DNA of 64,000 nt from Nitrospirota bacterium (GTDB lineage: Bacteria; JACPQY01), in NCBI GenBank assembly GCA_016180645.1, contig JACPAV010000012.1:1-64000 (forward strand), given 5' to 3'. The notes below the pieces were generated by a model. It did no database searches and had not been told where the DNA came from. It saw only the letters and a program-made list of their open reading frames with translations. Positions 11,194 to 60,413 of the stretch are shown here, in pieces. How positions within the stretch are numbered: position 1 is the first letter of the stretch; each line of letters begins with the position of its first letter. Position numbers and translations under genes: made by a program.

Positions 11194-11230
11194 AGGTAGC
11201 AAACAGAGTGAATCCTTGGCGAGGACCACT

Positions 11231-11300
11231 CGCAGGCATGAAGCCTGCGCCTACCCGGAAATGCACTCACGGTAACCGCGGGCTTCAGCCCGCGTCATCA
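11231..11300 (+). repeat. intergenic double-hairpin repeat (CGCAGGC/CGCGGGC type)
   Basis: Two short hairpins, CGCAGGCATGAAGCCTGCG and CGCGGGCTTCAGCCCGCG, are joined by a linker containing CCTACCC. A copy about 85% identical over ~65 bp (by eye) lies at 32136-32200, and related modules lie at 30998-31065 and 60314-60373. It separates the decarboxylase-like gene from the dehydrogenase within one operon. Confidence 0.7.
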
Positions 11301-30933: not shown

Positions 30934-30997
30934 ACGGACTGAGCCGCAGCGGTATGCTCGGCGCGGGCACGATTTGAGTTTCCCCCAACGTCCAAGG

Positions 30998-31065
30998 ACG
31001 CACCCATAAAGGGTGCGGCTACCAAGACCGACCGCGTAGGCGCAGGTTTTGTGCCTGCGTCTTCG
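30998..31065 (+). repeat. intergenic double-hairpin repeat (module order A-B)
   Basis: It contains GCACCCATAAAGGGTGC followed by GGCTACC, then GCGTAGG and CGCAGGTTTTGTGCCTGCG. The same two hairpins occur in reverse order at 60314-60373. The rest of the 155-bp gap between glutaredoxin and esterase holds nothing else recognised. Confidence 0.65.
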
Positions 31066-31088: not shown

Positions 31089-32111
31089 CTATTCGGATGT
31101 CGGGGGCCTGGTGAGTCGCTCCTTGAAGAAATCCCAGATGGGTTTCATGCCGAAGAGGTACCCGTAGGGAACTTGAAGGATGGGGGTGGGCGAGGTCGGG
31201 AAGTCGTTGATCAATTCAAAGTAAGGGTAGATGTCCGGCGCGGTTTCGCAGTGGTACGGCTCGTCGTCGCCCGACTTGTACCAGTCCACTTGGTGGTCTG
31301 AAACGAAGGCCCTGAGCTTGGGATCGATGCGCACCGCCAGGTTGCCGGTGCTCGAGCCGCCGGAATGACCAATGAGGCCGACGCGGTCGGGGTCCACATC
31401 CTCCCGGCAACGTATGTACCGGAGGCCGAGGAGACTTTCGTACACCCGCAACGAGATCAGGTTGAAACCGTTCAGGAGAAGCGTCCGCGTGACCTCGTGT
31501 TCATCTGCGTCGATGTTCATGGCTCGAAGGGTAAGCATGAGGATTGCGTAACCGTGCGCGGGGTATTCATTTCCGTGGAAGGTGTCGCGGTAGATTTCCG
31601 CGGTGTCACCGTGGCCGTGGAGGGCGACGATTCCGGGGGATGGCCCGCCTGTTTTCGGAGTAAGGAGGATGCCTTTGAAGGTTCCGACAAGGGGATCTTC
31701 GAATAGGAGCGCGGTCTCTTCGTATTCGGCGGATGAGGTTTCCCCGGTGATGGCGACCTTGAGTGGACGGTTGTCCAGTCCTTCCTCAAGGAAGCGCATG
31801 TTCAGGCGGTCGAGTAGCATCTCCCGGAGCGTTTCGGCCGGCATCGGTTCGGCAACGATGGGTGTTCGACCCGCCGGGATGTCGGAAAGTTTCCGGTTTA
31901 GTTCGTCCTCCGTGATGGGGCTTGCGTACGGGGCGGCGATGGCGGGAAAGGCGAGATAGTCCCCGGTGCAGCTCTTCGAGTCCTCACAGGCCCAGTCCGC
32001 GCCCGGCTTATCCTCCACCGTCAGCGTCCGACACCCTTCGGGACGACTTTGGGTATCGGCGGTGCAACCGCAGGATACGGCGAGCGCCGCGAATATCAGG
32101 GCTTCGAGCAA
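31089..32111 (-). CDS. serine hydrolase lipoprotein (acetyl xylan esterase/dienelactone hydrolase-like)
   Basis: The product is ~340 residues from the tentative TTG start at 32111. It opens with LLEALIFAALAVSCGC, a short lipoprotein signal with a Cys. An alpha/beta-hydrolase core shows the oxyanion region VALHGHGDTAEIYRD and the nucleophile elbow GLIGHSGGSSTGNLAV (Ser ~253). A late HCETAPDIYPYFELIND may hold the catalytic His. The frame extends upstream to 32501, but codons there translate the intergenic hairpin repeat at 32136-32200, so that part is rejected. It follows the GH31 gene on the same strand and may help degrade an acylated polysaccharide. Confidence 0.65.
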   Translation of the reverse strand: MLEALIFAALAVSCGCTADTQSRPEGCRTLTVEDKPGADWACEDSKSCTGDYLAFPAIAAPYASPITEDELNRKLSDIPAGRTPIVAEPMPAETLREMLLDRLNMRFLEEGLDNRPLKVAITGETSSAEYEETALLFEDPLVGTFKGILLTPKTGGPSPGIVALHGHGDTAEIYRDTFHGNEYPAHGYAILMLTLRAMNIDADEHEVTRTLLLNGFNLISLRVYESLLGLRYIRCREDVDPDRVGLIGHSGGSSTGNLAVRIDPKLRAFVSDHQVDWYKSGDDEPYHCETAPDIYPYFELINDFPTSPTPILQVPYGYLFGMKPIWDFFKERLTRPPTSE

Positions 32112-32135
32112 AATGGATGCCTGGCGCGAGTCTCC

Positions 32136-32200
32136 CGCAGGCGTAAAGCCTGCGCCTACCCTGAATGCACATTCTCGGTAGCCGCGGGCTTTAGCCCGCG
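32136..32200 (+). repeat. intergenic double-hairpin repeat, second copy
   Basis: CGCAGGCGTAAAGCCTGCG and CGCGGGCTTTAGCCCGCG match 11231-11300 over ~65 bp with about 85% identity by eye. It lies between the GH31 and esterase genes. Confidence 0.7.
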
Positions 32201-34781: not shown

Positions 34782-35381
34782 TCAAGTGGGGATGGATGCC
34801 ATGGGTTGCGGTGGCCGCTCCGGGCTCGTGCCCTCTCCGCCTGAGGCGGACACTTCCCCCATCCTGGAGGTCGGCACCACGTACGGCTTGCGCGTACCGC
34901 GATGACGAAGCGGTTGCTCTTCACGAATGAGCTTTTGGAGATACATCAGGCCGTCGGCCAGTGCTTCGGGTCGGGGAGGGCATCCGGGGACGTACACGTC
35001 AACCGGAATGACTTTGTCCACGCCGCGGAGGACGGAATAGCCGAGGTCGAAGAGCCCGCCGCAGTTGGAGCAGCTTCCCATCGAGAGGACCCACTTGGGC
35101 TCGGTCATCTGTTCCCAAAGAAGGCGGACGCGTGTCGCCATTTTGTACGTGATCGTTCCGGCGATGATCATCACATCGGACTGCCGCGGCGTGGCGCGGA
35201 AGATCATACCGAAGCGATCGAGGTCCAATCGCGGCCCGCCGGACTGCATCAGCTCGATTCCGCAGCACGCGGTGGCAAACAGCATGTACCAGAGCGAATT
35301 GCTCCGGCTCCAGTTGATGAGATCTTCGAGCTTGGCCACCACCACGGTGCCCGCTTCACTGACCGAATCGCGAATGCCCAT
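34782..35381 (-). CDS. nuoB: NADH-quinone oxidoreductase subunit B (orphan)
   Basis: The 199-residue protein has NuoB/PSST signatures for cluster N2: [11 protein letters not shown] with the tandem Cys, [10 protein letters not shown], and [11 protein letters not shown]. In complex I this subunit hands electrons to quinone at the membrane interface. No other nuo gene is nearby; it sits between fabF and a HesB gene. The C-terminal ~35 residues (after [10 protein letters not shown]) are atypical. Their codons contain a diverged copy of the in-frame repeat also found in murD and the ftsZ leader (34813-34866). Confidence 0.9.
34813..34866 (-). repeat. in-frame coding repeat, NuoB copy
   Basis: On the minus strand it runs CCAGGATGGGGGAAGTGTCC (first 20 bases) and ends GAGCCCGGAGCGGCC. 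Both ends match the copies at 50223 and 58402; the middle holds an extra palindrome TCCGCCTCAGGCGGA. It is read in the same phase, giving [15 protein letters not shown] compared with GEMPREGRSPER. Confidence 0.6.
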
Positions 35382-49180: not shown

Positions 49181-50695
49181 TTGAAATCTCAAATCTCAAA
49201 TCTCAAATCGGCCCGCGTGGCCGTTCTGGGCCTGGCCTCCACCGGGCGAGCGGTGTGCAGGTTCCTCCTAAGAGAGGGCGCCACGGTATTGGGACTGGAC
49301 CAGAAGGATACCCTTCTCATGCAGGAAATCGTGAAACCCCTGGTGGAAGCGGGCGTGACCGTCCGTCTCGGTCCGCATCGCAGCGAGGATTTTCGGGGAG
49401 TGGATGTGCTGGTCCTGAGTCCCGGCGTGTCGATTTCTCATCCCACGATCAAGGAGGTTTCGAACCGGATCCCCGTCTGGAGCGAGATCGAACTGGCGTA
49501 TCGCCATCTGAAGGCTCCGATCATCGGCGTGACAGGGACCAACGGCAAGAGCACGACCACGGTGCTCATCGGCAAGATCTTGGAAGCGGCGGGAAAGCGG
49601 GTCTTCACGGGCGGCAACCTCGGAACGCCCCTCATCGAAGCGGTCGGTGGCTCCTGGGATTGGATCGTCTGCGAAATCAGCAGTTTCCAGCTTGAGGCGA
49701 TTCGGGAGTTCAGGCCGAAAATCGGCGTCTTTTTGAACATCACGGACGACCATCTGGACCGGCACAAGGATTTCAACGAGTATTTCGACGCCAAGAAACG
49801 ATTGTTCGAACACCAACGAAGCGAGGATTTCGCCGTCATCAATCTGGATGATCCGCTGTTGGCGGATTGGGCCCGCGCATTGTCCGCCTCGCTCATCGGT
49901 ACGAGCCGGCTTCGATCGACCTCGCCGGGCGCCTTCCTCCGGGGGGACGAGTTGGTGTACGGCGATACCCGTGTCGAGGAGAGCTATCCGCTGGCGGAAG
50001 CCAACCTCAAGGGCGTGCACAACATTGAGAACATGCTGGCTTCGATTGCGGCGGCCCGCCTCGCCTTCTGTCCGCCGGATGCGATCCGCTCCGTCCTGAA
50101 AACATTCCAGCCCCTTCCGCACCGGATGGAATGGGTGGGAGCGGTGAAGGGCGTCGACTTCTACGACGATTCCAAGGCCACCAACGTTGGCGCGGTGATT
50201 CGCGCCATCGAATCGATGACCCCCACGACGGGGGAAATGCCGCGGGAGGGCAGGAGCCCGGAGCGGCTGACCCGCAAAACGGTCTTGATCCTCGGCGGCC
50301 TCGACAAAGGTGGGGATTTCGGCCTGATCGCGAGTCAGTCCGATCGAATCCGCCATGCGGTCTTGATCGGCCAGGCCAGGCAGCGATTGGAAGAAGCATT
50401 GCGGGGCAGGGTGGAGACCTCCCCCGCCGGATCGATGGGTGAAGCGGTGCGGTCGGCGTGGAAATCCGCGGAAGAGGGAGATGCGGTGCTGCTTTCACCG
50501 GCGTGCGCGAGCTTCGACATGTTCAAAAGCTACAAGGATCGAGGTGAACAATTTTGTGAGGCCGTCAGGAAACTGGCGGCCGAAGTGTCCGCTTCAGGGC
50601 GGGAGGGGTCCCAGGCCCGGAAGACAGGCAGCAAGCCGAGCGATGGAGGGACGGCGAAGTCGCCAAAAGGGGTTTATGAAGCGCGCATGCATTGA
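49181..50695 (+). CDS. murD: UDP-MurNAc-L-alanine:D-glutamate ligase MurD (with inserts)
   Basis: The 504-residue Mur ligase adds D-Glu to UDP-MurNAc-Ala. It has VAVLGLASTGRAVCRFL at the N-terminus, the P-loop GVTGTNGKSTTTVL (~117) and a central domain with NITDDHLDRH. DDSKATNVGAVIRAIES and LILGGLDKGGDFG lie in the C-domain. About 20 residues (~347-366) between those two segments are encoded by the in-frame repeat 50223-50270, and the tail beyond ~467 by a diverged copy. Both are absent from typical MurD. The first ~11 residues (from TTG 49181) come from a tandem AAATCTC repeat, so a GTG at ~49217 may be the true start. Confidence 0.93.
   Translation: MKSQISNLKSARVAVLGLASTGRAVCRFLLREGATVLGLDQKDTLLMQEIVKPLVEAGVTVRLGPHRSEDFRGVDVLVLSPGVSISHPTIKEVSNRIPVWSEIELAYRHLKAPIIGVTGTNGKSTTTVLIGKILEAAGKRVFTGGNLGTPLIEAVGGSWDWIVCEISSFQLEAIREFRPKIGVFLNITDDHLDRHKDFNEYFDAKKRLFEHQRSEDFAVINLDDPLLADWARALSASLIGTSRLRSTSPGAFLRGDELVYGDTRVEESYPLAEANLKGVHNIENMLASIAAARLAFCPPDAIRSVLKTFQPLPHRMEWVGAVKGVDFYDDSKATNVGAVIRAIESMTPTTGEMPREGRSPERLTRKTVLILGGLDKGGDFGLIASQSDRIRHAVLIGQARQRLEEALRGRVETSPAGSMGEAVRSAWKSAEEGDAVLLSPACASFDMFKSYKDRGEQFCEAVRKLAAEVSASGREGSQARKTGSKPSDGGTAKSPKGVYEARMH
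49184..49210 (+). repeat. tandem AAATCTC repeat at the murD start
   Basis: AAATCTC occurs in three tandem 7-bp units followed by AAATC at the very 5' end of the murD frame, encoding KSQISNLKS. A related block, with an added palindrome, lies at the 5' end of ftsW. Confidence 0.55.
50223..50270 (+). repeat. in-frame coding repeat, murD internal copy
   Basis: This 48-bp element starts CCACGACGGGGGAAATGCCG and ends GAGCCCGGAGCGGCTGA. It is identical to 58402-58449 at 46 of 48 positions. It is translated as TTGEMPREGRSPERLT. It contains the small palindrome GGGCAGGAGCCC (one mismatch pair). Confidence 0.85.
50582..50622 (+). repeat. in-frame coding repeat, murD C-terminal diverged copy
   Basis: GAAGTGTCCGCTTCAGGGCG plus GGAGGGGTCC resembles the middle of the NuoB copy (GAAGTGTCCGCCTCAGGCGG plus AGAGGGCACG). 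It is translated in the same phase as AEVSASGREGSQAR. The match to the shorter copies is weak. Confidence 0.4.
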
Positions 50696-51948
50696 CCCCG
50701 CCTCGAACCCATCTCAGATCTCAAATTTCGAATTTGAGATCGCCGGAACGCGGCGGCGGACTCGACTGGCCGCTCGTGGTGGCCGTGGCCTCTCTCTGCA
50801 TTCTGGGCGCCTTCATGGTCTACAGCGCGAGCTACTTCTACGCCCTCAAGAAATTCGAGGATCCGAGCTTCTTCTTCAAGAAACAGCTCCTCTGGCTGGC
50901 GGTGGGACTGATCTCGATGCTGGCGGCATCCCGGATTCGCCTGGAAACCTGGGGCCGACTCGCCGCGCCGCTTCTGCTGCTCAGTATCATCATGCTGGGA
51001 CTGGTTCTCACGGGATTGGGCACGGAAGTCGGCGGCGGGCGCCGGTGGTTCCGGCTCGGGGGATTCAGTTTTCAGCCGGCCGAATTGGCCAAGTTCAGCT
51101 TGATTCTCTACATGGCCGGCTCCTTGCCGCGGAAAGAAGACTCCATGCGTAGTTTCCTGAAGGGCGTTCTGCCCTACCTGATCATCGGAGGACTCTGCGT
51201 CGTTCTCGTTCTGGCCGAGCCGGATTTCGGGATGGCCATGACCATGCTCGGGCTCGTGCTGCTCATGGTGTTCATCGCGGGGATGCGTTTCCGGTACGTG
51301 GCCATGACGGTCCTGGCGGCGGCGCCGATGGCCGTTTTTCTCGTCATGAAGCAGCCGTATCGCGTGAAGCGCGTCGTTTCCTTCCTCAACCCCTGGGAAC
51401 ACTACGAAGGGAGCGGGTTCCAACTGATCCAATCCCTTCTTTCGTTCATGGCCGGGGGGGGGGCGGGAGTCGGACTGGGCTCGGGCCGGCAGAAGCTGTT
51501 CTTTCTGCCCGAAGCACACACTGATTTTCTCCTGGCCGTGGTGGGGGAGGAGTTGGGACTGGTGGGCGTGTTGATCGTTCTCGGACTGTTCGGACTGATC
51601 CTGCACCGCGGTCTCCAGATCAGCCGGCGCGCGCCGGATGCGTTCACGTCGCTCCTGGCCACAGGGCTCACGCTGCTCATCGTGTTCCAGGCTATACTGA
51701 ATGCAGGGGTTTCGGTGGGGCTTCTTCCGACGAAGGGAATGCCCTTGCCCTTCATGAGTTATGGGGGTACATCGATATGGGTCAATTTGATGGCCGCGGG
51801 AATTCTCCTCGGCATAGGCAGGAGATCCCATGAAACGGTTGTTGATCGCATGCGGGGGTACGGGGGGGCACCTGTTCCCGGCATTGGCGGTCGCGGAAAA
51901 ATATGGGGAAGCCAGGGTCGGCTCCCCGGAGGGACACAGGGATCGTGA
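50692..51948 (+). CDS. ftsW: lipid II polymerase/division protein FtsW
   Basis: The 418-residue SEDS-family glycosyltransferase has about ten membrane helices. VYSASYFYALKKF near the start, GGRRWFRLGGFSFQPAELAKF, the catalytic Asp region NPWEHYEGSGFQLIQSL, VVGEELGLVG and LPFMSYGGTSIWVN match the family. The start is TTG 50692, overlapping murD. The C-terminus runs 119 nt into murG in another frame, adding ~40 residues (HETVVDRMRGYGGAPVPGIG onward) not typical of FtsW, so the normal stop may have been lost. Residues ~9-17 are encoded by a strong palindrome. Confidence 0.92.
   Translation: MTPPRTHLRSQISNLRSPERGGGLDWPLVVAVASLCILGAFMVYSASYFYALKKFEDPSFFFKKQLLWLAVGLISMLAASRIRLETWGRLAAPLLLLSIIMLGLVLTGLGTEVGGGRRWFRLGGFSFQPAELAKFSLILYMAGSLPRKEDSMRSFLKGVLPYLIIGGLCVVLVLAEPDFGMAMTMLGLVLLMVFIAGMRFRYVAMTVLAAAPMAVFLVMKQPYRVKRVVSFLNPWEHYEGSGFQLIQSLLSFMAGGGAGVGLGSGRQKLFFLPEAHTDFLLAVVGEELGLVGVLIVLGLFGLILHRGLQISRRAPDAFTSLLATGLTLLIVFQAILNAGVSVGLLPTKGMPLPFMSYGGTSIWVNLMAAGILLGIGRRSHETVVDRMRGYGGAPVPGIGGRGKIWGSQGRLPGGTQGS
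50717..50741 (+). repeat. perfect 11-bp hairpin within the ftsW start region
   Basis: GATCTCAAATT - TCG - AATTTGAGATC. It lies 25 nt after the TTG start of ftsW and could affect its translation. It shares the ATCTCAAAT core with the tandem repeat at the murD start. Confidence 0.7.
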
Positions 51949-52933
51949 ACTCTTGTTCGTCGGTGTAGAAGACAAAGTCTTCGAGAAAGTCCTCTCGAAG
52001 CAGGGCCTGCCCTATCGGACGATTTCCTCGGGCGCCCTGCACGGAGGGGGATGGCGGGGTCGACTCCGTTCGGTGCGCCGCATCGGGCGGGGCATAGGGG
52101 AGGCACGAAAGATTCTCCGTGAATTCGCCCCGGACGCGCTCCTCGGCATGGGCGGATTCGCCCAAGTCCCCACTTTTCTTGCCGCTCGATTGGCGGGAAT
52201 CCCTTCGGCCCTTCATGAACAGAATGCGACCGCGGGGCGGGCCAATCTTCTCCTTTCGCGGCTCGCCGCACGGGTGTTCGTGTCGCATGACTCCGCCGTG
52301 AATCAGTTCCCGAAAGGCCGGGCCCTGTTCACCGGCCTTCCCGTCCGACGCTCCTTCTTCGAGTACCCGTCACCCGTCCCCCATCACCCGTCACCTTTCA
52401 CGCTTTTTGTGCTCGGCGGAAGCCAGGGAGCCTATTTTCTCAACCGGTTGATGGCGGACGTACTGCCGAAACTCGGAAGTCTGGCGGCCCGATTCCGATT
52501 CATTCACCAGACAGGGGAGGGTGACTACTCTTTCGTGGCGGATGCGTACCGGGCCGCGGGGGTTCGGGCGGAGACCGCCCCATTTTTCCACGACGTGGAT
52601 CGTCGCCTCCGGGAAACTCATTTGGTCCTCGCCCGCGCCGGGGCCTCATCCGTGGCCGAATTCTCCGCCGCCGGCCGCGGCGCCGTACTCGTGCCGTATC
52701 CATTCGCCGTGAAGGATCACCAATTCGCCAATGCCAGGGCGTTGGAATCGGCGGGCGGGGCGCAGGTCTTTCGCCAGAGCGAGATGACCGCCGACAAGAT
52801 GGCCAACATTCTCGCGTATTTTCTGGAGAAGCCTGAAAAGGCCGTGGAGATGGGGACAAACGCAGCGAAGCTGGCCCGCCCGGACGCCGCGAAGCGGGTT
52901 TGCGAAGAACTTGAAAAACTATGTCTGAATTAG
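51830..52933 (+). CDS. murG: UDP-GlcNAc:lipid I transferase MurG
   Basis: The 367-residue peripheral GT-B glycosyltransferase makes lipid II. It has GGTGGHLFPALAVAEKY at the N-terminus (donor/acceptor loop), GMGGFAQVPTFLAARL, HEQNATAGRANLLLS, LGGSQGAYFLNRL and the UDP-GlcNAc-binding ARAGASSVAEFSAAGR. ATG 51830 lies within the ftsW frame. A Pro/His-rich stretch YPSPVPHHPSPF (~180) is encoded by CCCGTCA-type tandem repeats (52365-52402). Confidence 0.95.
   Translation: MKRLLIACGGTGGHLFPALAVAEKYGEARVGSPEGHRDRELLFVGVEDKVFEKVLSKQGLPYRTISSGALHGGGWRGRLRSVRRIGRGIGEARKILREFAPDALLGMGGFAQVPTFLAARLAGIPSALHEQNATAGRANLLLSRLAARVFVSHDSAVNQFPKGRALFTGLPVRRSFFEYPSPVPHHPSPFTLFVLGGSQGAYFLNRLMADVLPKLGSLAARFRFIHQTGEGDYSFVADAYRAAGVRAETAPFFHDVDRRLRETHLVLARAGASSVAEFSAAGRGAVLVPYPFAVKDHQFANARALESAGGAQVFRQSEMTADKMANILAYFLEKPEKAVEMGTNAAKLARPDAAKRVCEELEKLCLN
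52365..52402 (+). repeat. CCCGTCA-type tandem repeat inside murG
   Basis: Degenerate heptads (CCCGTCA, CCCGTCC, CCCATCA, CCCGTCA, CCTTTCA) occupy the linker between the two murG domains and encode YPSPVPHHPSPF. Similar heptad filler, of different sequence, occurs at 62914-62941. Confidence 0.6.
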
Positions 52934-54348
52934 CCGGCGCAACCGATACGGCCTACCCCCGCATCCGTCGGGTCCACATGATCGGCGTGGGCGGGAGCGG
53001 CATGAGCGGAATCGCCGAAGTCTTGTTGACCCACGGTTATGACGTGAGCGGGTCGGACGCGAAGTGGACCTCCGTGACCGAGCGGTTGGAGAAGATGGGG
53101 GTGAAAGTTTCGATCGGTCATCAGGCGGAGAACGTGAAAGATGTGGACGTGGTGGTCTTTTCTTCCGCCGTGGCGCCGGACAATCCCGAAGTGTCCGAGG
53201 CCCGGCAGCGGGGAATCCCGGTGATTCCGCGGGCGGAAATGCTGGCGGAAGTCATGCGCATGAAATACGGCATCCTCGTGGCCGGCGCGCATGGAAAGAC
53301 GACCACGACCTCCCTTTTAGCCCATCTCCTCACCGAGGCGAAGTTCGACCCCACCGTGGTCATCGGGGGCCGTTTCCTCTCGTGGGGAGGGGGCGCGAAG
53401 CCCGGCCGCGGGAAATTCGTCGTGGCGGAGGCGGACGAAAGCGACGGCTCTTTCCTTAAGCTCAGTCCGACGATCGCCGTGGTGACGAATGTGGACCGCG
53501 AGCACATGAATCACTACCGCACGATGGGCCGGCTGAAGACGGCATTTCTGGAATTCATGAACAAAGTGCCGTTTTTCGGGCTCTGCGTGGTCTGCACCGA
53601 GAATCCAATTCTCCGGAAGCTCAGACCCAAAATCCAGCGCCGGGTGGTCACCTACGGTTGCAAACCCAAAGGGGACAGCTGGGCCAGGAAGATCACGTTC
53701 GACGGTGGCCGCAGCTCCTTCGAGGTCATGCTGGGGAAGGAGTCTCTGGGGCCATTCGAGGTCCCGCTCATCGGATACCACAACGTACTCAATTCCCTTG
53801 GCGCACTCGCCACCGCCCGGGAGCTCGGCATCCCGGTGGAAACCGCGCGGGCGGCTCTGAAGACTTTTCCCGGTGTGCACCGGCGGTTTGAAGTGAAGGG
53901 GGTCCACCACGATGTCATGATCGTGGACGACTACGGCCACCACCCACAGGAAATCCGCGTGACTCTGCGCGCCGCCCGTGAGAGCTGGCCGAAGCGGCGG
54001 CTCGTGGTGGCTTTCCAGCCGCACCGCTACTCGCGCACCCAGGATTTATTCGAGGAATTCATGGTCTCGTTTGGGGACGCGCATGAACTTTTTGTCGCCG
54101 ACATCTACTCGGCCGGCGAAACGGCCATCGAGGGCGTACACGCCTCCAAATTGGTGGAAGGCCTCAAGGCAAAAGGATTCGACCGAGCGCACTACCACGC
54201 CGACCGCCGGCAGATGACGGAGGAGATCGCGAGGCTCCTCCGGCCCGGAGATCTCTTTCTCACCCTCGGGGCGGGGGATATCTGGATGGTGGCCGAAGAA
54301 ATCATCCACCGGCTGACCCAGGAAGGAGAGCAGGCCCGTGTCGCTTAA
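52921..54348 (+). CDS. murC: UDP-MurNAc:L-alanine ligase MurC
   Basis: The 475-residue Mur ligase starts the stem peptide. It has HMIGVGGSGMSGIAEVL near the N-terminus, the ATP motif VAGAHGKTTTTSLLAHL (~119), EADESDGSFLKLSP, NVDREHMNHY and the C-terminal DDYGHHPQEIRVTLRA. ATG 52921 overlaps murG by 13 nt. It is intact by motif and length. Confidence 0.96.
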   Translation: MSELAGATDTAYPRIRRVHMIGVGGSGMSGIAEVLLTHGYDVSGSDAKWTSVTERLEKMGVKVSIGHQAENVKDVDVVVFSSAVAPDNPEVSEARQRGIPVIPRAEMLAEVMRMKYGILVAGAHGKTTTTSLLAHLLTEAKFDPTVVIGGRFLSWGGGAKPGRGKFVVAEADESDGSFLKLSPTIAVVTNVDREHMNHYRTMGRLKTAFLEFMNKVPFFGLCVVCTENPILRKLRPKIQRRVVTYGCKPKGDSWARKITFDGGRSSFEVMLGKESLGPFEVPLIGYHNVLNSLGALATARELGIPVETARAALKTFPGVHRRFEVKGVHHDVMIVDDYGHHPQEIRVTLRAARESWPKRRLVVAFQPHRYSRTQDLFEEFMVSFGDAHELFVADIYSAGETAIEGVHASKLVEGLKAKGFDRAHYHADRRQMTEEIARLLRPGDLFLTLGAGDIWMVAEEIIHRLTQEGEQARVA

Positions 54349-55306
54349 TGCCGAAACGCGCGCCGTGTTGAAGGAGACGCTCAAAAGCGATGTGGAGTTC
54401 GAGGCCTCCATGGCGAAGTGCACCACCTTGCGCGTGGGCGGGCCGGTCGATGCCATGGTCCACCCCCGATCCATCGATCAGGTCCAGTGGCTCCTGTCGT
54501 TCTGCAAGGCGCGGGGCGTTCCGTATTGGGTCAAAGGCCGCGGCTCGAATATGCTTGTCCTTTCCAAAGGCATTGAGGGCGTCCTCATCGATTTCACCGA
54601 GGGGATGTCAAAGATCAAACGGCTGGCCGGAAACCAGGTGTACGCGGAGAGCGGGGCCAACATCACGAAGCTCCTCGATTTCTGTCGGAAAGAAGGACTG
54701 GGTGGAGTGGAGTTCATCACGGGGACGCCGGGCACGGTGGGCGGCGCGCTGTTCATGAATGCGGGTGCGAACCAGGGCGAGATGAAGGACATCGTGCGCG
54801 AAGTGACGCTGGTGAACGGAACGGGCACGGTGGCGCGGAAGCGGCGCGAGGAGATCGGGTTCCGGTATCGCGCGAGCGGACTCGCGCCGGGGACGGTTGT
54901 CCTGGGCGTGACCTTTTCGCTCACCCCCAGGAAGCCCGAGGAGATCCGCAGCACCATCAACCAACTGATCAAGGAACGCCGCGCCAAGGAGCCGAAAGGC
55001 CATCCCAGCGCGGGATCGATTTTCAAGAATCCGCCCGGAGACTACGCGGGGCGGCTCATCGAGGCCTGCGGGCTGAAAGGCACTCGACTGGGCGGCGCCA
55101 TGGTTTCCCGGGAACATGCCAATTTCATCGTGACCACGGGCGATGCGAGCGGGGACGACGTTCTCGCGCTCATCCGCGACATTCGCGGGACCGTGAAGGA
55201 GAAAACCGGGATTCTCCTGGAGCCGGAGGTACAGATCGTGGGCCGACCCGAGCGGCAGGACCTGGAGGGGTTCATGGAGGAACTGAGTCGTGAAAGGAAA
55301 ACATAA
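54338..55306 (+). CDS. murB: UDP-N-acetylenolpyruvoylglucosamine reductase MurB
   Basis: The 322-residue FAD enzyme reduces the enolpyruvyl intermediate to UDP-MurNAc with NADPH. It has KCTTLRVGGPVDAMV, the FAD-binding WVKGRGSNMLVLSKGIEG, EFITGTPGTVGGALFMNAGA and the proton-donor segment HPSAGSIFKNPPGDYAGRLIE. The C-terminal EPEVQIVG carries the active-site Glu. It starts at GTG 54338, 11 nt inside murC. Confidence 0.95.
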   Translation: MSLNAETRAVLKETLKSDVEFEASMAKCTTLRVGGPVDAMVHPRSIDQVQWLLSFCKARGVPYWVKGRGSNMLVLSKGIEGVLIDFTEGMSKIKRLAGNQVYAESGANITKLLDFCRKEGLGGVEFITGTPGTVGGALFMNAGANQGEMKDIVREVTLVNGTGTVARKRREEIGFRYRASGLAPGTVVLGVTFSLTPRKPEEIRSTINQLIKERRAKEPKGHPSAGSIFKNPPGDYAGRLIEACGLKGTRLGGAMVSREHANFIVTTGDASGDDVLALIRDIRGTVKEKTGILLEPEVQIVGRPERQDLEGFMEELSRERKT

Positions 55307-56228
55307 ATACCAGGGGAAGAGAGTCGGCGTCGTCATGGGTGGCGCCAGCACGGAGCGGGAGATCTCGCTCAAGACCGGCGCCGCGGTGGCCGACGCCCTC
55401 GAAACGGAGGGTTTCAAAGTCGTCCGCGTGGTGGATCAGGCCAACCTGCTCGACGCGGTCAAGCAGAAGAAATTCGACGTCGCTTTTCTCGCGTTGCACG
55501 GGCGCTGGGGAGAGGATGGAACCGTGCAGGCGATTCTCGAGTACGCCGGAATTCCGTATACGGGCTCGGGGGTGCTGGCCAGTGCGCTGGGCATGAACAA
55601 GCTCCGATCGCGGCTTCTCTTCGAGAAGGCCGGCCTGCCCACGCCGCGCTGGTTCTCCCTGAACGGCTCGTCCGGCGGCCGGGTCCCCGAAGACGCCCCT
55701 TTCCAATACCCGTGGGTGGTGAAGCCGAATGGCGAGGGTTCCAGCGTGGGCGTGAACCTTGCCCGCTCACGGAGCGAGGCGGGCCGCGCGATCGACGAGG
55801 CCTTCCGGCACGACCACACGGTGCTCGTGGAGAAATTCGTCCCGGGCCGCGAAGTTTCCGTGGGCATTGTCAGCGATGCGCCGCTGGGCGCGGTGGAGGT
55901 CGTTCCCCGCGATGAGTTCGCGACCTACAAGGCTAAGTACACGGCCGGGATGGAGACGTTCTTCTGCCCGCCGCGGCTGCCCCGGCGGCTCGTCGAGGAT
56001 ATTCTGGAACTCGGGTGGAAAGCCCACGGAGCGGTCGGAGCGAACTACTACAGCCGAATCGACATGCGTGTCACGGAAGAGGGACGGCCGTTTATCTTGG
56101 AAATCAACACACTACCGGGGCTGACGCCCACGAGCTGGCTCCCGAAAATCGCCCAGCGGGTGGGGATCTCGTACCGAGGTCTCGTCCGGCTGATCCTCGC
56201 TTCCGCGTCCTTGAAGGCGGCCGGATGA
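55290..56228 (+). CDS. ddl: D-alanine--D-alanine ligase
   Basis: The 312-residue ATP-grasp enzyme makes the dipeptide used by MurF. It has VVMGGASTEREISLKTG at the N-terminus, HGRWGEDGTVQ, PYTGSGVLASALGMNK, ATP-binding VVKPNGEGSSVGV, EINTLPGLTPTSWLPK and a normal length. The start is GTG 55290, overlapping murB by 17 nt. Nothing suggests a D-Ala-D-Lac (VanA-type) specificity, although this was not modelled. Confidence 0.95.
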   Translation: MKGKHKYQGKRVGVVMGGASTEREISLKTGAAVADALETEGFKVVRVVDQANLLDAVKQKKFDVAFLALHGRWGEDGTVQAILEYAGIPYTGSGVLASALGMNKLRSRLLFEKAGLPTPRWFSLNGSSGGRVPEDAPFQYPWVVKPNGEGSSVGVNLARSRSEAGRAIDEAFRHDHTVLVEKFVPGREVSVGIVSDAPLGAVEVVPRDEFATYKAKYTAGMETFFCPPRLPRRLVEDILELGWKAHGAVGANYYSRIDMRVTEEGRPFILEINTLPGLTPTSWLPKIAQRVGISYRGLVRLILASASLKAAG

Positions 56229-56239
56229 TCGGACGATGA

Positions 56240-56335
56240 GGATTTGTTCTGGACCCCCCATCCTGATCTTCCCCCATAAGGAGGGAAGGGAGGAGAATTA
56301 CCCCCTCCCCCTCGACGAGGGAGGGTGGGGGTGAA
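56240..56335 (+). repeat. C/G-rich palindromic repeat between ddl and ftsQ
   Basis: The 113-bp gap contains CCCCCCATCCTGATCTTCCC and a stem-forming block CCCCTCCCCCTCGACGAGGG plus AGGG (56301-56325). Such CCCCTCN-hairpins are known as dispersed intergenic elements in diverse bacteria. It is the only sizeable non-coding gap inside the dcw cluster. Confidence 0.5.
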
Positions 56336-56341
56336 CACTCG

Positions 56342-57163
56342 ATGAAGATCAACAAGCGGCTTCGCAGCGGTGGATCCCGAATCCGCGGATTCTCCAGGGC
56401 CGTGACCGGATTCTTCGCCCGGGTGGCGGAAATCCCCCACGTGGGATCCATCCTGCTGGGCGCCTTCGTCGCGGGGATTCTGACGGCTCTCGCGGGCCAG
56501 GTCTTCGTCCTGAAGCGGGTGGTCGTGGAGGACACCGGGGGGTTCGAATCCAACCAGGTCGTGGGCTGGGCCGGACTCCACGGCGGAGAGAATTTGCTTT
56601 TCCTTGACCTACAAGATGTGGTAAAAAGGCTGGAAGCACAGCGATGGATCGCGGACGTGCGCATATGGAAAGTGTGGCCTCATACCCTCCGGGTTCGCCT
56701 CAATCGGAGAACCCCGTTCGCTCTCCTTTCCACATCTCAAGGCCTGGTGGCCGTTGATTCGGAAGGAAAACGTCTCGGAGGGGTGGAGGAAAACTCTCCT
56801 GGATTTCGCCTCCAAGGATTGGCCCTTCCGGAGTCCGGAACATTCGACGATCCGCGCTGGAAGGAAATTGTGATGCTTGCGACCCGAATTTCGAGCGCCC
56901 CGGATCTCGCGGGAGATCGTGTCGATACGGTGGCCGTGACTCCCGGTCGACTGGAATTCCAGACGTCCCGGTTTCGGATGGTATTTGCCGCGGGCCGCGC
57001 GGATGAGGGCTGGAAGACGTTTGAGAAATTCAGAACGGCGTACGGCTCGGAACGGCTGGATGAATTCCAGGTGTTTGATTTGACGATTGCGGATCGCGTG
57101 ATTACGCGTCCAACACCCATTAAGCAAGGCTCCCCCGGGCCTCTCACTTCCACCCAAGGCTGA
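56342..57163 (+). CDS. ftsQ: cell division protein FtsQ-like (POTRA)
   Basis: The 273-residue bitopic protein has a basic cytoplasmic start, one membrane helix (GSILLGAFVAGILTALAGQV) and a POTRA domain (LKRVVVEDTGGFESNQVVGW, followed by RWIADVRIWKVWPHTLRVRL). The latter is the conserved FtsQ element. Position before ftsA supports the call. The C-terminal ~100 residues are diverged. ATG 56342 overlaps the end of the C/G-rich repeat region. Confidence 0.85.
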   Translation: MKINKRLRSGGSRIRGFSRAVTGFFARVAEIPHVGSILLGAFVAGILTALAGQVFVLKRVVVEDTGGFESNQVVGWAGLHGGENLLFLDLQDVVKRLEAQRWIADVRIWKVWPHTLRVRLNRRTPFALLSTSQGLVAVDSEGKRLGGVEENSPGFRLQGLALPESGTFDDPRWKEIVMLATRISSAPDLAGDRVDTVAVTPGRLEFQTSRFRMVFAAGRADEGWKTFEKFRTAYGSERLDEFQVFDLTIADRVITRPTPIKQGSPGPLTSTQG

Positions 57164-57165
57164 CG

Positions 57166-58398
57166 ATGGCGCGCGGAGATATTGTCGTCGGACTCGATAT
57201 CGGTACCACGAAGATTTGCGTGGTGGTGGGCGAGGCGACGGAGTCGGGTACGGATATCATCGGCGTGGGCGACCACCCCTCCCGGGGCCTCCGCAAGGGC
57301 GTGGTGGTGAACATCGACAACACCGTCGAATCCATCAAGAAGGCGGTGGCCGAGGCCGAGTTCATGGCCGGGTGCGAAATCAACACCGTCTTTGCGGGCA
57401 TCGCCGGCGGGCACGTCAAGAGCTTCAACAGCACGGGCGTGATCGCCATCAAGGACCGTGAGGTCAAAACAGTGGACATCGACCGGGTCGTGGAAGCGGC
57501 CAAGGCGGTGGCCATTCCCATGGACCGTGAAGTCATCCACATTCTCCCGCAGGAGTTCATCCTCGACGGACAGGCCGGGTTGAAGGATCCGGTCGGCATG
57601 TCGGGTGTACGCCTGGAGTCGAAGGTCCATATCATCACGGCGGCCGTGACCTCGGCCCAGAACATCATCAAGTGCGCGAACAAGGCGGGGCTGGACGTGA
57701 GCGACATCATCCTTCAGCAGCTCGCAAGTTCCGAGGCCATCCTTACGCAGGATGAGAAAGACATGGGTGTGGCGATCCTGGATATCGGGGGGGGGACGAC
57801 CGATATCGCCGTTTTTGCGGACGGCTCGCTCAAATACACGTCGGTGCTCAATCTCGGCGGCGACCACGTCACGAACGACATCGTGGTCGGGCTGCGCACG
57901 CCGGCCCACGAGGCGGAAAAGATCAAGGAAAAGTACGGGTGCGCGCTGTCGAGCCTCATCACGAAGGACGAGAACATCGAGGTTCCCGGCGTGGGCGGGC
58001 GCAAGTCACGGCAGGAGAGCCGGAAGTTTCTGACGGAAATCATCGAGCTGCGAATGGAAGAGGTGCTCGAACTGGCGTTTCGGGACCTCGAGAAAGCCGG
58101 ATTCGGGGAGACCTTGACGGCCGGGGTGGTGATCACCGGCGGCGGTTCCATGCTGGAGGGATGCGTGGAGCTGGCGGAGAAGGCGTTCAACATGCCGGCT
58201 CGCAGGGGAATTCCTGAGAAAGTCGGCGGACTCTCGGATGCCGTGAAACATCCGAAGTACGCCACGGGCGTCGGCCTGGTGCAACTGGGAGGCGGATCGA
58301 GCAAGCGCAATCAGTTCCGCATCAGGGATGAGGAGATCTTCGACAAGGTCAAAGCAAGGATGCGAGAATGGTTCAAGGGGATAAAAGACTACTTTTGA
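57166..58398 (+). CDS. ftsA: cell division protein FtsA
   Basis: The 410-residue actin-fold ATPase tethers FtsZ to the membrane. It has VVGLDIGTTKICVVVGE at the N-terminus, the SHS2 subdomain (~85-160), ILDIGGGTTDIAVF, VITGGGSMLEGCVELAE and a C-terminal amphipathic helix VKARMREWFKGIKDYF as membrane-targeting sequence. It starts 2 nt after ftsQ and overlaps the open ftsZ leader frame by 31 nt. Confidence 0.96.
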   Translation: MARGDIVVGLDIGTTKICVVVGEATESGTDIIGVGDHPSRGLRKGVVVNIDNTVESIKKAVAEAEFMAGCEINTVFAGIAGGHVKSFNSTGVIAIKDREVKTVDIDRVVEAAKAVAIPMDREVIHILPQEFILDGQAGLKDPVGMSGVRLESKVHIITAAVTSAQNIIKCANKAGLDVSDIILQQLASSEAILTQDEKDMGVAILDIGGGTTDIAVFADGSLKYTSVLNLGGDHVTNDIVVGLRTPAHEAEKIKEKYGCALSSLITKDENIEVPGVGGRKSRQESRKFLTEIIELRMEEVLELAFRDLEKAGFGETLTAGVVITGGGSMLEGCVELAEKAFNMPARRGIPEKVGGLSDAVKHPKYATGVGLVQLGGGSSKRNQFRIRDEEIFDKVKARMREWFKGIKDYF

Positions 58399-58925
58399 CC
58401 CCCAGGACGGGGGAAATGCCGCGAGAGGGCAGGAGCCCGGAGCGGCTGAGCGAGAAGCAGGCGGAACTTTTCCAAGAGGGGTCAAGTTCCGGTTCGACGG
58501 AGGCGGCTGGTCCCACCGGATCTGCCGTGGCCATTGCGTCAGAGCCGTCGAATTCCGATACGCAGATAGGAGGGCCAAATTCCCTGAGCGCGGCGGAGGA
58601 ACCCGCCGGTGCATCGGGGCCAGTACGGTCCGGTACTTGCCAAGAAGAGCCGCTCCAGAGTGGGCGGCTAGAGGAGGAAAGTGCAGGGCCAATTGAGGAA
58701 ACCGTAGCGGCAGAGCCGGGAGATTCGGCGACGACCCACACGCCAGAGATGGCCGCCGAGGGTCAGTCGCCGGAAGCTCCGGCCTCCGACGGATCCTCCG
58801 AATCCACCTCCACGCTGGGGGAAACGTTTCTTCTCCAATCCTTGGAGCAGGAGTCGAATCCCTCCACACCGGAGGAAGCGCTCCTTGCCGAAGAGGGCGA
58901 GGAAGCATTGCAAAGGAGGCCTTCT
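58399..58925 (+). other. open frame between ftsA and the ftsZ core: possible FtsZ leader
   Basis: The ftsZ reading frame stays open for 186 codons upstream of its likely start (from ATG 58368). Translation would give an acidic, Ser/Pro/Glu-rich low-complexity sequence (EEPAGASGPVRSGTCQEEPL and similar) with no fold recognised. The first ~16 codons after ftsA are the 58402-58449 repeat (GEMPREGRSPERLS). It may be a genuine disordered FtsZ extension, a separate small protein, or non-coding insertion. The absence of stops over ~560 nt is notable. Confidence 0.5.
58402..58449 (+). repeat. in-frame coding repeat, ftsZ-leader copy
   Basis: This 48-bp element (CCAGGACGGGGGAAATGCCG at its head) differs from the murD copy at two positions. 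It begins 4 nt after the ftsA stop. It is read in the same phase as in murD. Confidence 0.85.
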
Positions 58926-60257
58926 ATGGAAGAGCAAAAAGGGACAACGGAGAAAGCGGCCGCCGCCGAATCGGCTCCCTCGACTGAAACCCCGGAGACG
59001 AGCATGTTCAAACTGGCGGAAGAGGAACCCACGTTCGGCGCGAAGATCAAAGTCTTTGGCGTCGGCGGGTGCGGCTGCAACGCCATCAAGAACATGTTCC
59101 AGTCCCATGTCCGTGGAGTGGAACTGATCGCGGCCAATACGGACGCGCAGCATCTTGAGAAACGGGCGAAAGCGGACAAGAAAATCCAGCTTGGTCCGGG
59201 ATCCACGCGTGGACTCGGCGCGGGCGGCGATCCCGAGCGGGGAAAGACGGCCGCGCAGGAAAGCCGCGAAGAGATCCGGAAGGTGCTCGAAGGCGCGGAC
59301 ATGGCTTTCATTACGGCCGGCATGGGCGGCGGCACCGGCACCGGCGCAGCGCCCGTGGTCGCCCAGATCGCCAAAGAAATGGGAATCCTGACCGTAGGCG
59401 TGGTGACCCGCCCCTTGGCCGATGAGGGCCCGCGGCGCCAGAAGCACGCCGAAGAAGGCCTCCGCGAGATGCGGAACTACACCGACACCATCATCGTCAT
59501 CCCGAACCAACGGCTTCTCGCCGTGGCGGGAGACCGGGATCTGCGCGAAGCGTTTAAGAAGGCGGACGACGTCCTGATCAACGCCGTGCGCGGGATCTCG
59601 GACATCATCACCGTACCGGGACTGGTGAACCGGGATTTCGCGGACATCAAGAGCGTGATGCAGGAAATGGGTCTGGCCATGATGGGCATCGGACTTGCGC
59701 AGGGCGAGAATCGCGCGAAGGAAGCGGCGGAATTCGCCATCTCCAGCCCGCTGCTTGAAGACGTGTCCATCCAGGGCGCGAAGGCCATCTTGGTGAACTT
59801 CACGGGCTACTCGATGACGCTCAACGAGGTGCATCAGGCCATTGATTACATCCGCCAGCAGGCCGGCGATCAGGCCCACCTGCTGTGGGGTGCCGTCTAC
59901 AACAAGAACAAGAAGTTCAAGGACACCCTGCGCGTGACGGTGATCGCCACGGGCTTCGGCACCACGAAGCGCGAGGAAACAACCGCTCGAACGGGGAACG
60001 TGCGCGAGCTGAGCGACTACGACAGCCCGACGTGGCTCCGGCGGAAACGCCAGGAGAAACCCGAGACAGCGGAGAAGGAGGTCGAACCCCTACCGCCCGC
60101 ACCGCAGCAGGCGGCCAGTGTGAATGCGAGCGCAAAAGCGGCGGCGGCGAAAACCGCGGCGGGCTACGGCGGCGTGACCATCCACGAGCGGTCGCGCGTG
60201 GAGACCACGGACGAGGACTACGACATCCCGACCTTTCTGAGACGCCGCCCGGACTGA
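58926..60257 (+). CDS. ftsZ: cell division GTPase FtsZ
   Basis: The 443-residue tubulin homologue forms the Z-ring. KIKVFGVGGCGCNAIKNM, NTDAQHL, the GTP signature GMGGGTGTGAAPVVAQIAKE, DEGPRRQKHAEEGL and the T7 region (NRDFADIKSVM) are intact. The variable linker (~350-425) leads to the conserved C-terminal peptide DYDIPTFLRRRP that binds FtsA. ATG 58926 has an ideal AAGGAGG 6 nt upstream and was preferred. Translation from 58368 would add 186 residues. The first ~40 residues before the core are low complexity. Confidence 0.95.
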   Translation: MEEQKGTTEKAAAAESAPSTETPETSMFKLAEEEPTFGAKIKVFGVGGCGCNAIKNMFQSHVRGVELIAANTDAQHLEKRAKADKKIQLGPGSTRGLGAGGDPERGKTAAQESREEIRKVLEGADMAFITAGMGGGTGTGAAPVVAQIAKEMGILTVGVVTRPLADEGPRRQKHAEEGLREMRNYTDTIIVIPNQRLLAVAGDRDLREAFKKADDVLINAVRGISDIITVPGLVNRDFADIKSVMQEMGLAMMGIGLAQGENRAKEAAEFAISSPLLEDVSIQGAKAILVNFTGYSMTLNEVHQAIDYIRQQAGDQAHLLWGAVYNKNKKFKDTLRVTVIATGFGTTKREETTARTGNVRELSDYDSPTWLRRKRQEKPETAEKEVEPLPPAPQQAASVNASAKAAAAKTAAGYGGVTIHERSRVETTDEDYDIPTFLRRRPD

Positions 60258-60282: not shown

Positions 60283-60413
60283 CTGGGCTCTGTTTGATAA
60301 CGTGTTGGACCGGTAGGCGCAGGCTTCAGCCTGCGTCCGAAGACGCACCCGTAAAGGGTGCGGCTACCAAGAGAGGCGCCCCGGCAATGATGGGGTTTTC
60401 AAACAGAGCCTAG
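60283..60413. mobile_element. MITE-like element with 19-bp terminal inverted repeats
   Basis: The ends CTGGGCTCTGTTTGATAAC and (inverted) CTAGGCTCTGTTTGAAAAC match at 17 of 19 positions. The 131-bp interior has no gene and carries the CGCAGGCTTCAGCCTGCG and GACGCACCC/GGGTGC hairpins. A target-site duplication was not identified. It lies just after ftsZ. Confidence 0.55.
60314..60373 (+). repeat. intergenic double-hairpin repeat (module order B-A)
   Basis: GTAGG, CGCAGGCTTCAGCCTGCG, then GACGCACCCGTAAAGGGTGC and GGCTACC. It holds the same modules as 30998-31065 in the opposite order, nested in the inverted repeats at 60283-60413. Confidence 0.65.

Follow-up and report, generated by a model that had tools for sequence, protein, structure and literature searches.

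The window, a 64,000-nucleotide stretch of a Nitrospirota bacterium contig, carries murD, ftsA and an ORF with FtsZ on its forward strand and nuoB on its reverse strand, and in or between these genes lie three copies of a short hairpin-forming element:

49181..50695, forward strand: murD, host gene, 504 aa (Pfam; match to PDB 3lk7)
50219..50269, forward strand: 51-bp element copy inside murD, encoding TPTTGEMPREGRSPERL, MurD aa 347-363 (orthologue and solved-structure alignments)
50220..50234, forward strand: hairpin I of the murD copy, CCCCC-ACGAC-GGGGG (structure, covariation)
50239..50267, forward strand: hairpin II of the murD copy, outer stem GCCGC/GCGGC, inner GGGC-AGGA-GCCC (structure, covariation)
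50582..50622, forward strand: weak relative proposed in the MurD tail, unsupported as a copy (2.8 bits, unfiltered search)
57166..58398, forward strand: ftsA, stop codon completed by the element (name from the first-pass annotation)
58368..60257, forward strand: ORF with FtsZ and a long low-complexity N-terminal leader (Pfam)
58398..58448, forward strand: 51-bp element copy in the open leader upstream of ftsZ, its first A completing the ftsA stop TG/A
34782..35381, reverse strand: nuoB, host gene, 199 aa, Oxidored_q6 (Pfam)
34812..34871, reverse strand: 60-bp diverged copy at the nuoB C-terminus (covariance model, E 4e-8)

The repeat that the first-pass annotation recognized in murD and after ftsA is real, and slightly longer than the 48 bp claimed for it: the two copies are identical at 52 of 54 positions (50217-50270 and 58396-58449), and a covariance model recovers each at E ~1e-15. 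The longer, diverged minus-strand copy reported at the NuoB C-terminus also proved to be a genuine member (34811-34871, E 4e-8). The weak relative in the MurD tail did not hold up: an unfiltered search scored it at just 2.8 bits. It has a single exact 17-mer in common with the nuoB copy, and may be a decayed fragment of the element. A single common reading frame had been proposed as well: this is true of the murD, ftsA/ftsZ and nuoB copies, all in sense phase 0 of their frames (MurD reads TPTTGEMPREGRSPERL), but genome-wide both sense phases 0 and 2 occur.

In MurD, the peptide amounts to 17 extra residues and, as an added peptide should be, is absent from orthologues: it is missing from 29 of 29, including the 54%-identical protein of the one other member of the family examined (G001), a count read from the printed alignment, in which one orthologue has a short unrelated extension at the insert site. 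It is also missing in 3lk7, the insert sitting in a helix-to-strand loop before ILGGLDKGG. Solved homologues of MurD, SucD, DnaG and an alpha/beta hydrolase can be aligned on either side of the insert. The ftsA/ftsZ copy is placed differently: its first base serves as the final A of the ftsA TGA stop, after which the copy enters an open, possibly translated leader. This leader (58398-59030), roughly 200 codons long, acidic and of low complexity, precedes ftsZ.

At 11204-11260, 32109-32165, 30980-31027 and 60325-60372 the window has two other interspersed repeats, whose hairpins read GCAGGC..GCCTGCG and whose ends are CTACC; these are probably GTAG-type REPs.

Fold, distribution and insertion site

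The unit consists of two hairpins, CCNCC-AGGAN-GGNGG followed by GCCGC...GCGGC around a second stem with a GGA-containing loop, and begins with ACC... on the left and ends with ...GGCCG or ...GGGATG on the right. Net length is 51 bp, with variants of 54, 60 and 90: in the source genome of the window most copies are 51 nt net, the nuoB copy is 60, and five copies (L016, L022, L044, L045, L046) are a 90-nt long form with CCCTGAAGGAATCGATGGAATCGGGCAGGG inserted within hairpin II, all five within ORFs. The palindromic character suspected in the first-pass annotation is borne out by compensatory changes: in the source genome 21 cells are altered on both sides and the observed score was reached in 0 of 500 shuffles, as was also the case (0 of 500) for subfamily B of the Lindowbacteria. 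GGA is kept in the loops while the stems vary, although the loop is cut down to AGGA in the source-genome copies, and hairpin I of some of them no longer has GGA. Inspection of the end sequences revealed no terminal inverted repeats, a classical MITE trait; at the element, Rfam covariance models gave nothing near the gathering score.

Further copies, many of them in frame within genes, do exist, as the first-pass annotation had anticipated. With a covariance model built from 23 copies, 32 were counted at E<1e-6 in the source genome (G000; 4.7 Mb, 65 contigs), including copies that follow one another head to tail every 51 nt at two places (contigs C7 and C48). G001 has one. Deeper searches of three genomes of one other family, belonging to a different candidate phylum, found 5 (G030), 11 (G177) and 38 (G312), the last, a Candidatus Lindowbacteria, having the most of any genome. 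Of the 386 genomes surveyed, drawn from many families, the remaining 381 gave no copy, with filters strict enough that weak relatives may be missed. Most matches in a scan of named genomes were due to chance, the convincing copies being confined to Lindowbacteria and Eremiobacterota loci, with a single copy in one Eremiobacterota contig. Viral contigs, plasmids and phages yielded no match, and a phage or plasmid origin was rejected on this basis. In G030, more than 25 tRNA genes are densely packed in one array (contig C27, about 1.5-5.3 kb, L116), and three copies of the element lie between them, both orientations being represented.

The point of insertion can be read at several places. In G000 and G001, CG or TG stands directly before the element in 30 of the 32 copies whose left flank could be read (the count omits one edge-degraded copy, C7:154281). 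Eight copies interrupt tandem arrays of period 7 or 8, and in all eight the heptad or octad register is best restored when exactly 51 nt are cut out (one copy needs 52). G001 has a 26-bp repeat in two neighboring forms, one filled by the element and one empty. The element thus adds a net 51 bp (54 in its relatives) directly after YG, and has done so at numerous genes and spacers of a single genome. No target duplication is visible in the net 51 nt beyond the shared YG. Left flank and right end go together by subfamily, TG/TG in B and CG/CG in A; because only 2 of 7 TG-flanked copies from G000 and subfamily A have a TG right end, we think it likelier that the right end belongs to the element than that it is a true duplication, without regarding the matter as settled. 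Short period-7 and period-8 arrays host the element repeatedly in the source genome, on contigs C10, C3, C1, C26, C33, C21 and C6 (L011, L012, L017, L018, L021, L023, L048 and L049), and include the types CACGACT-, GTCCTGC- and GGGATCAC.

The repeat is, then, a real, dispersed, structure-conserved mobile element rather than a chance similarity, its mobility being deduced from the pattern of copies and not from movement observed directly. Its most probable identity is a non-autonomous, hairpin-ended mobile DNA element of MITE/REP-like type.

Copies inside genes and at gene junctions

Host genes in the source genome encode MurD, NuoB, succinyl-CoA ligase alpha, DnaG, ribonucleotide reductase, a polysaccharide export protein, a nitrate reductase delta-like protein, DUF1844 and DUF1329 proteins and a C25 peptidase. 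Among copies in robust ORFs there, 17 are sense and one is antisense (ORF calls are from a codon-usage script, and the N-terminal copies on C26, C10 and C21 may precede the true start); in Lindowbacteria alone the ratio is 11:6, not a significant bias (p 0.33). The 28 sense copies in ORFs of both lineages are in phases 0 and 2 only, phase 1 being absent, and read TPxxGEVPREGRSPERP in phase 0 and PQEGGSAARGQEPGAA in phase 2. The net lengths of in-gene copies are divisible by three. Roughly one third to one half of the source-genome copies fall outside gene interiors.

In the source genome, sense phases 0 and 2 contain no stops, or almost none, and encode hydrophilic peptides, while two of the three antisense phases are hydrophobic; purifying selection can therefore explain the pattern without any targeting of genes. 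An insertion inside a gene would survive when it does almost no harm, owing to its length, its freedom from stops and the hydrophilic peptide it encodes, and selection would remove insertions in other orientations and phases. Compatibility with coding looks like a consequence of the element's length, openness and end sequence, and not like its purpose.

The related subfamily B of Lindowbacteria is found mostly at gene junctions (ATG/A) and less in protein loops. It is 54 nt long with the right end GGGAGCGGGATG. Of its 36 copies, 35 follow TG and 24 follow ATG; ATG/A thus accounts for 24 of the 35 TG-flanked copies against a background of 27% (p 4e-7). Exact stop/start junctions, in which a long upstream frame ends in TG/A and a long downstream frame starts at the element's terminal start codon, were seen for 7 of the 24 ATG/A copies vs 5% of background ATGA sites (p 2e-4), with open-frame length serving as the proxy for a gene. 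Inserted at an overlapping ATGA, the element leaves the upstream TGA stop in place and gives the downstream gene a new ATG together with a ribosome-binding-like sequence; the source-genome copy at the end of ftsA follows the same logic for the stop codon. In the predicted fold, the A and U of the supplied ATG are paired within the outer stem, which would permit control of initiation.

Alternative readings and the mobilizing enzyme

Could the junction copies reflect the element's actual role? It might be a mobile translation-initiation cassette, its hairpin targeting overlapping stop and start codons, hiding the supplied start in a stem and bringing numerous downstream genes under the control of a single RNA-binding regulator, while the gene-interior copies would be tolerated by-products; we consider this rather unlikely. 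Another reading is a portable RNA control element binding CsrA/RsmA through ANGGA loops, in which the ATG/A copies set GGA beside the new start codon. The match is attractive: the loop GGA is invariant while the stems vary, the apical loop of Lindowbacteria copies (C-ANGGAU-G, e.g. GATACAGGGATGTATC) fits the CsrA SELEX consensus, and a CsrA gene was found in G000, G001 and G030. ANGGA hairpin loops are present in Lindowbacteria copies but only partly in the source genome, where the loop is shortened to AGGA, some copies have no GGA in hairpin I, and most copies lie in gene interiors or tails; CsrA is in any case common (139 of 386 genomes). CsrA binding becomes a minor rival, and quite improbable, because no CsrA gene was detected in two of the five carriers, G177 (81% complete) and G312 (88% complete), the latter with 38 copies.

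Removal of the insert after transcription, by RNA splicing or byp-like ribosome bypassing, would leave the proteins normal, and would suit a structured insert that is sense-biased in the source genome and sits in essential enzymes. Splicing needs neither a net multiple of three nor an open frame in the phases used, the element has both, and this makes splicing or bypassing unnecessary; moreover, some copies lie in intergenic DNA and in tRNA arrays, and no intron-like Rfam match was found. We regard removal as very improbable. The element could instead be an ordinary GTAG/CGTC-type REP moved by a RAYT, being a small hairpin repeat with some copies in genes and with RAYT-like genes in all carriers; this is unlikely, since neither end has GTAG or CGTC and the 20 RAYT/Y1 loci examined have no flanking element.

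For the non-autonomous MITE/REP-like element favored here, Y1 transposases are our best guess at a mobilizing enzyme, a guess made with low confidence. Y1 transposase genes are present in all five carrier genomes, and mobilization in trans by a Y1 single-strand transposase (IS200/IS605/RAYT type) may be proposed on two grounds: no duplication of the target is visible, and the left target dinucleotide matches the element's right end by subfamily. None of 20 RAYT/Y1 loci read in the five carriers, with about 1.5 kb on each side, is flanked by the element, and RAYT mobilization of the kind that has flanking copies was rejected for this reason. Autonomous versions and half-copies were looked for, and none was found.

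Relation to known repeats and significance

Several families of small repeats invade ORFs. Rickettsia palindromic elements (RPE), to which the first-pass annotation likened the repeat, are small hairpin-forming repeats found in frame in many unrelated genes, to which they add a peptide (PMC10969869, PMC3733652); they are reported as ~150 bp, with some families shorter, and as having a CGTC end (PMC3733652, PMC10969869). The likeness lies in the in-frame insertion into conserved ORFs (MurD, SucD, DnaG and others) and in the hairpins, evident in both fold and covariation. Going by RPE descriptions, the differences are the absence of CGTC from either end, a length of 51-90 bp, the use of two sense phases and the occurrence in two unrelated uncultured lineages. 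The core idea of an RPE-like, peptide-adding repeat withstands the checks set out in the first-pass annotation (further copies, in-frame positions inside genes, absence from MurD orthologues, a conserved hairpin fold), with three corrections: two phases are in use, many copies lie outside gene interiors, and the Lindowbacteria relatives are mostly at junctions. By the tests available, the element is not in the RPE/CGTC class.

GTAG/CGTC-tagged REPs are also short hairpins, some of them in ORFs, and their GTAG termini can supply a stop codon (PMC3733652). The present element shares the short hairpins and the location of some copies within ORFs, but has no tag, is a two-hairpin unit, inserts at YG and, in subfamily B, supplies a start codon from its right end. 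PARCELs, tandem 25-residue amphipathic repeats in ORFs without assigned function (PMC2996958), are similarly palindromic, protein-coding and spread across distant taxa, but are tandem where our element makes single insertions in conserved enzymes. QMITE1/2 of Coxiella are MITEs able to fuse in frame with ORFs, 150-400 bp long and with direct repeats (PMC5896051); the element resembles them in being MITE-type and in frame with ORFs, and differs in its 51-90 bp and in having no clear target duplication. Functionally, it is closest to RPE and intragenic REPs (PMC3733652, PMC10969869), yet is best filed apart from them. This separation from RPE/REP membership was made because the tests for GTAG and CGTC failed and there was no Rfam match.

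Most citations of protein-coding palindromic elements concern Rickettsia. The presence of another family, apparently unrelated, in free-living uncultured lineages suggests that the seeding of essential enzymes with in-frame peptides is a more general route of protein change, and the subfamily at stop/start junctions would offer a natural example of operon translation re-engineered by a mobile element.
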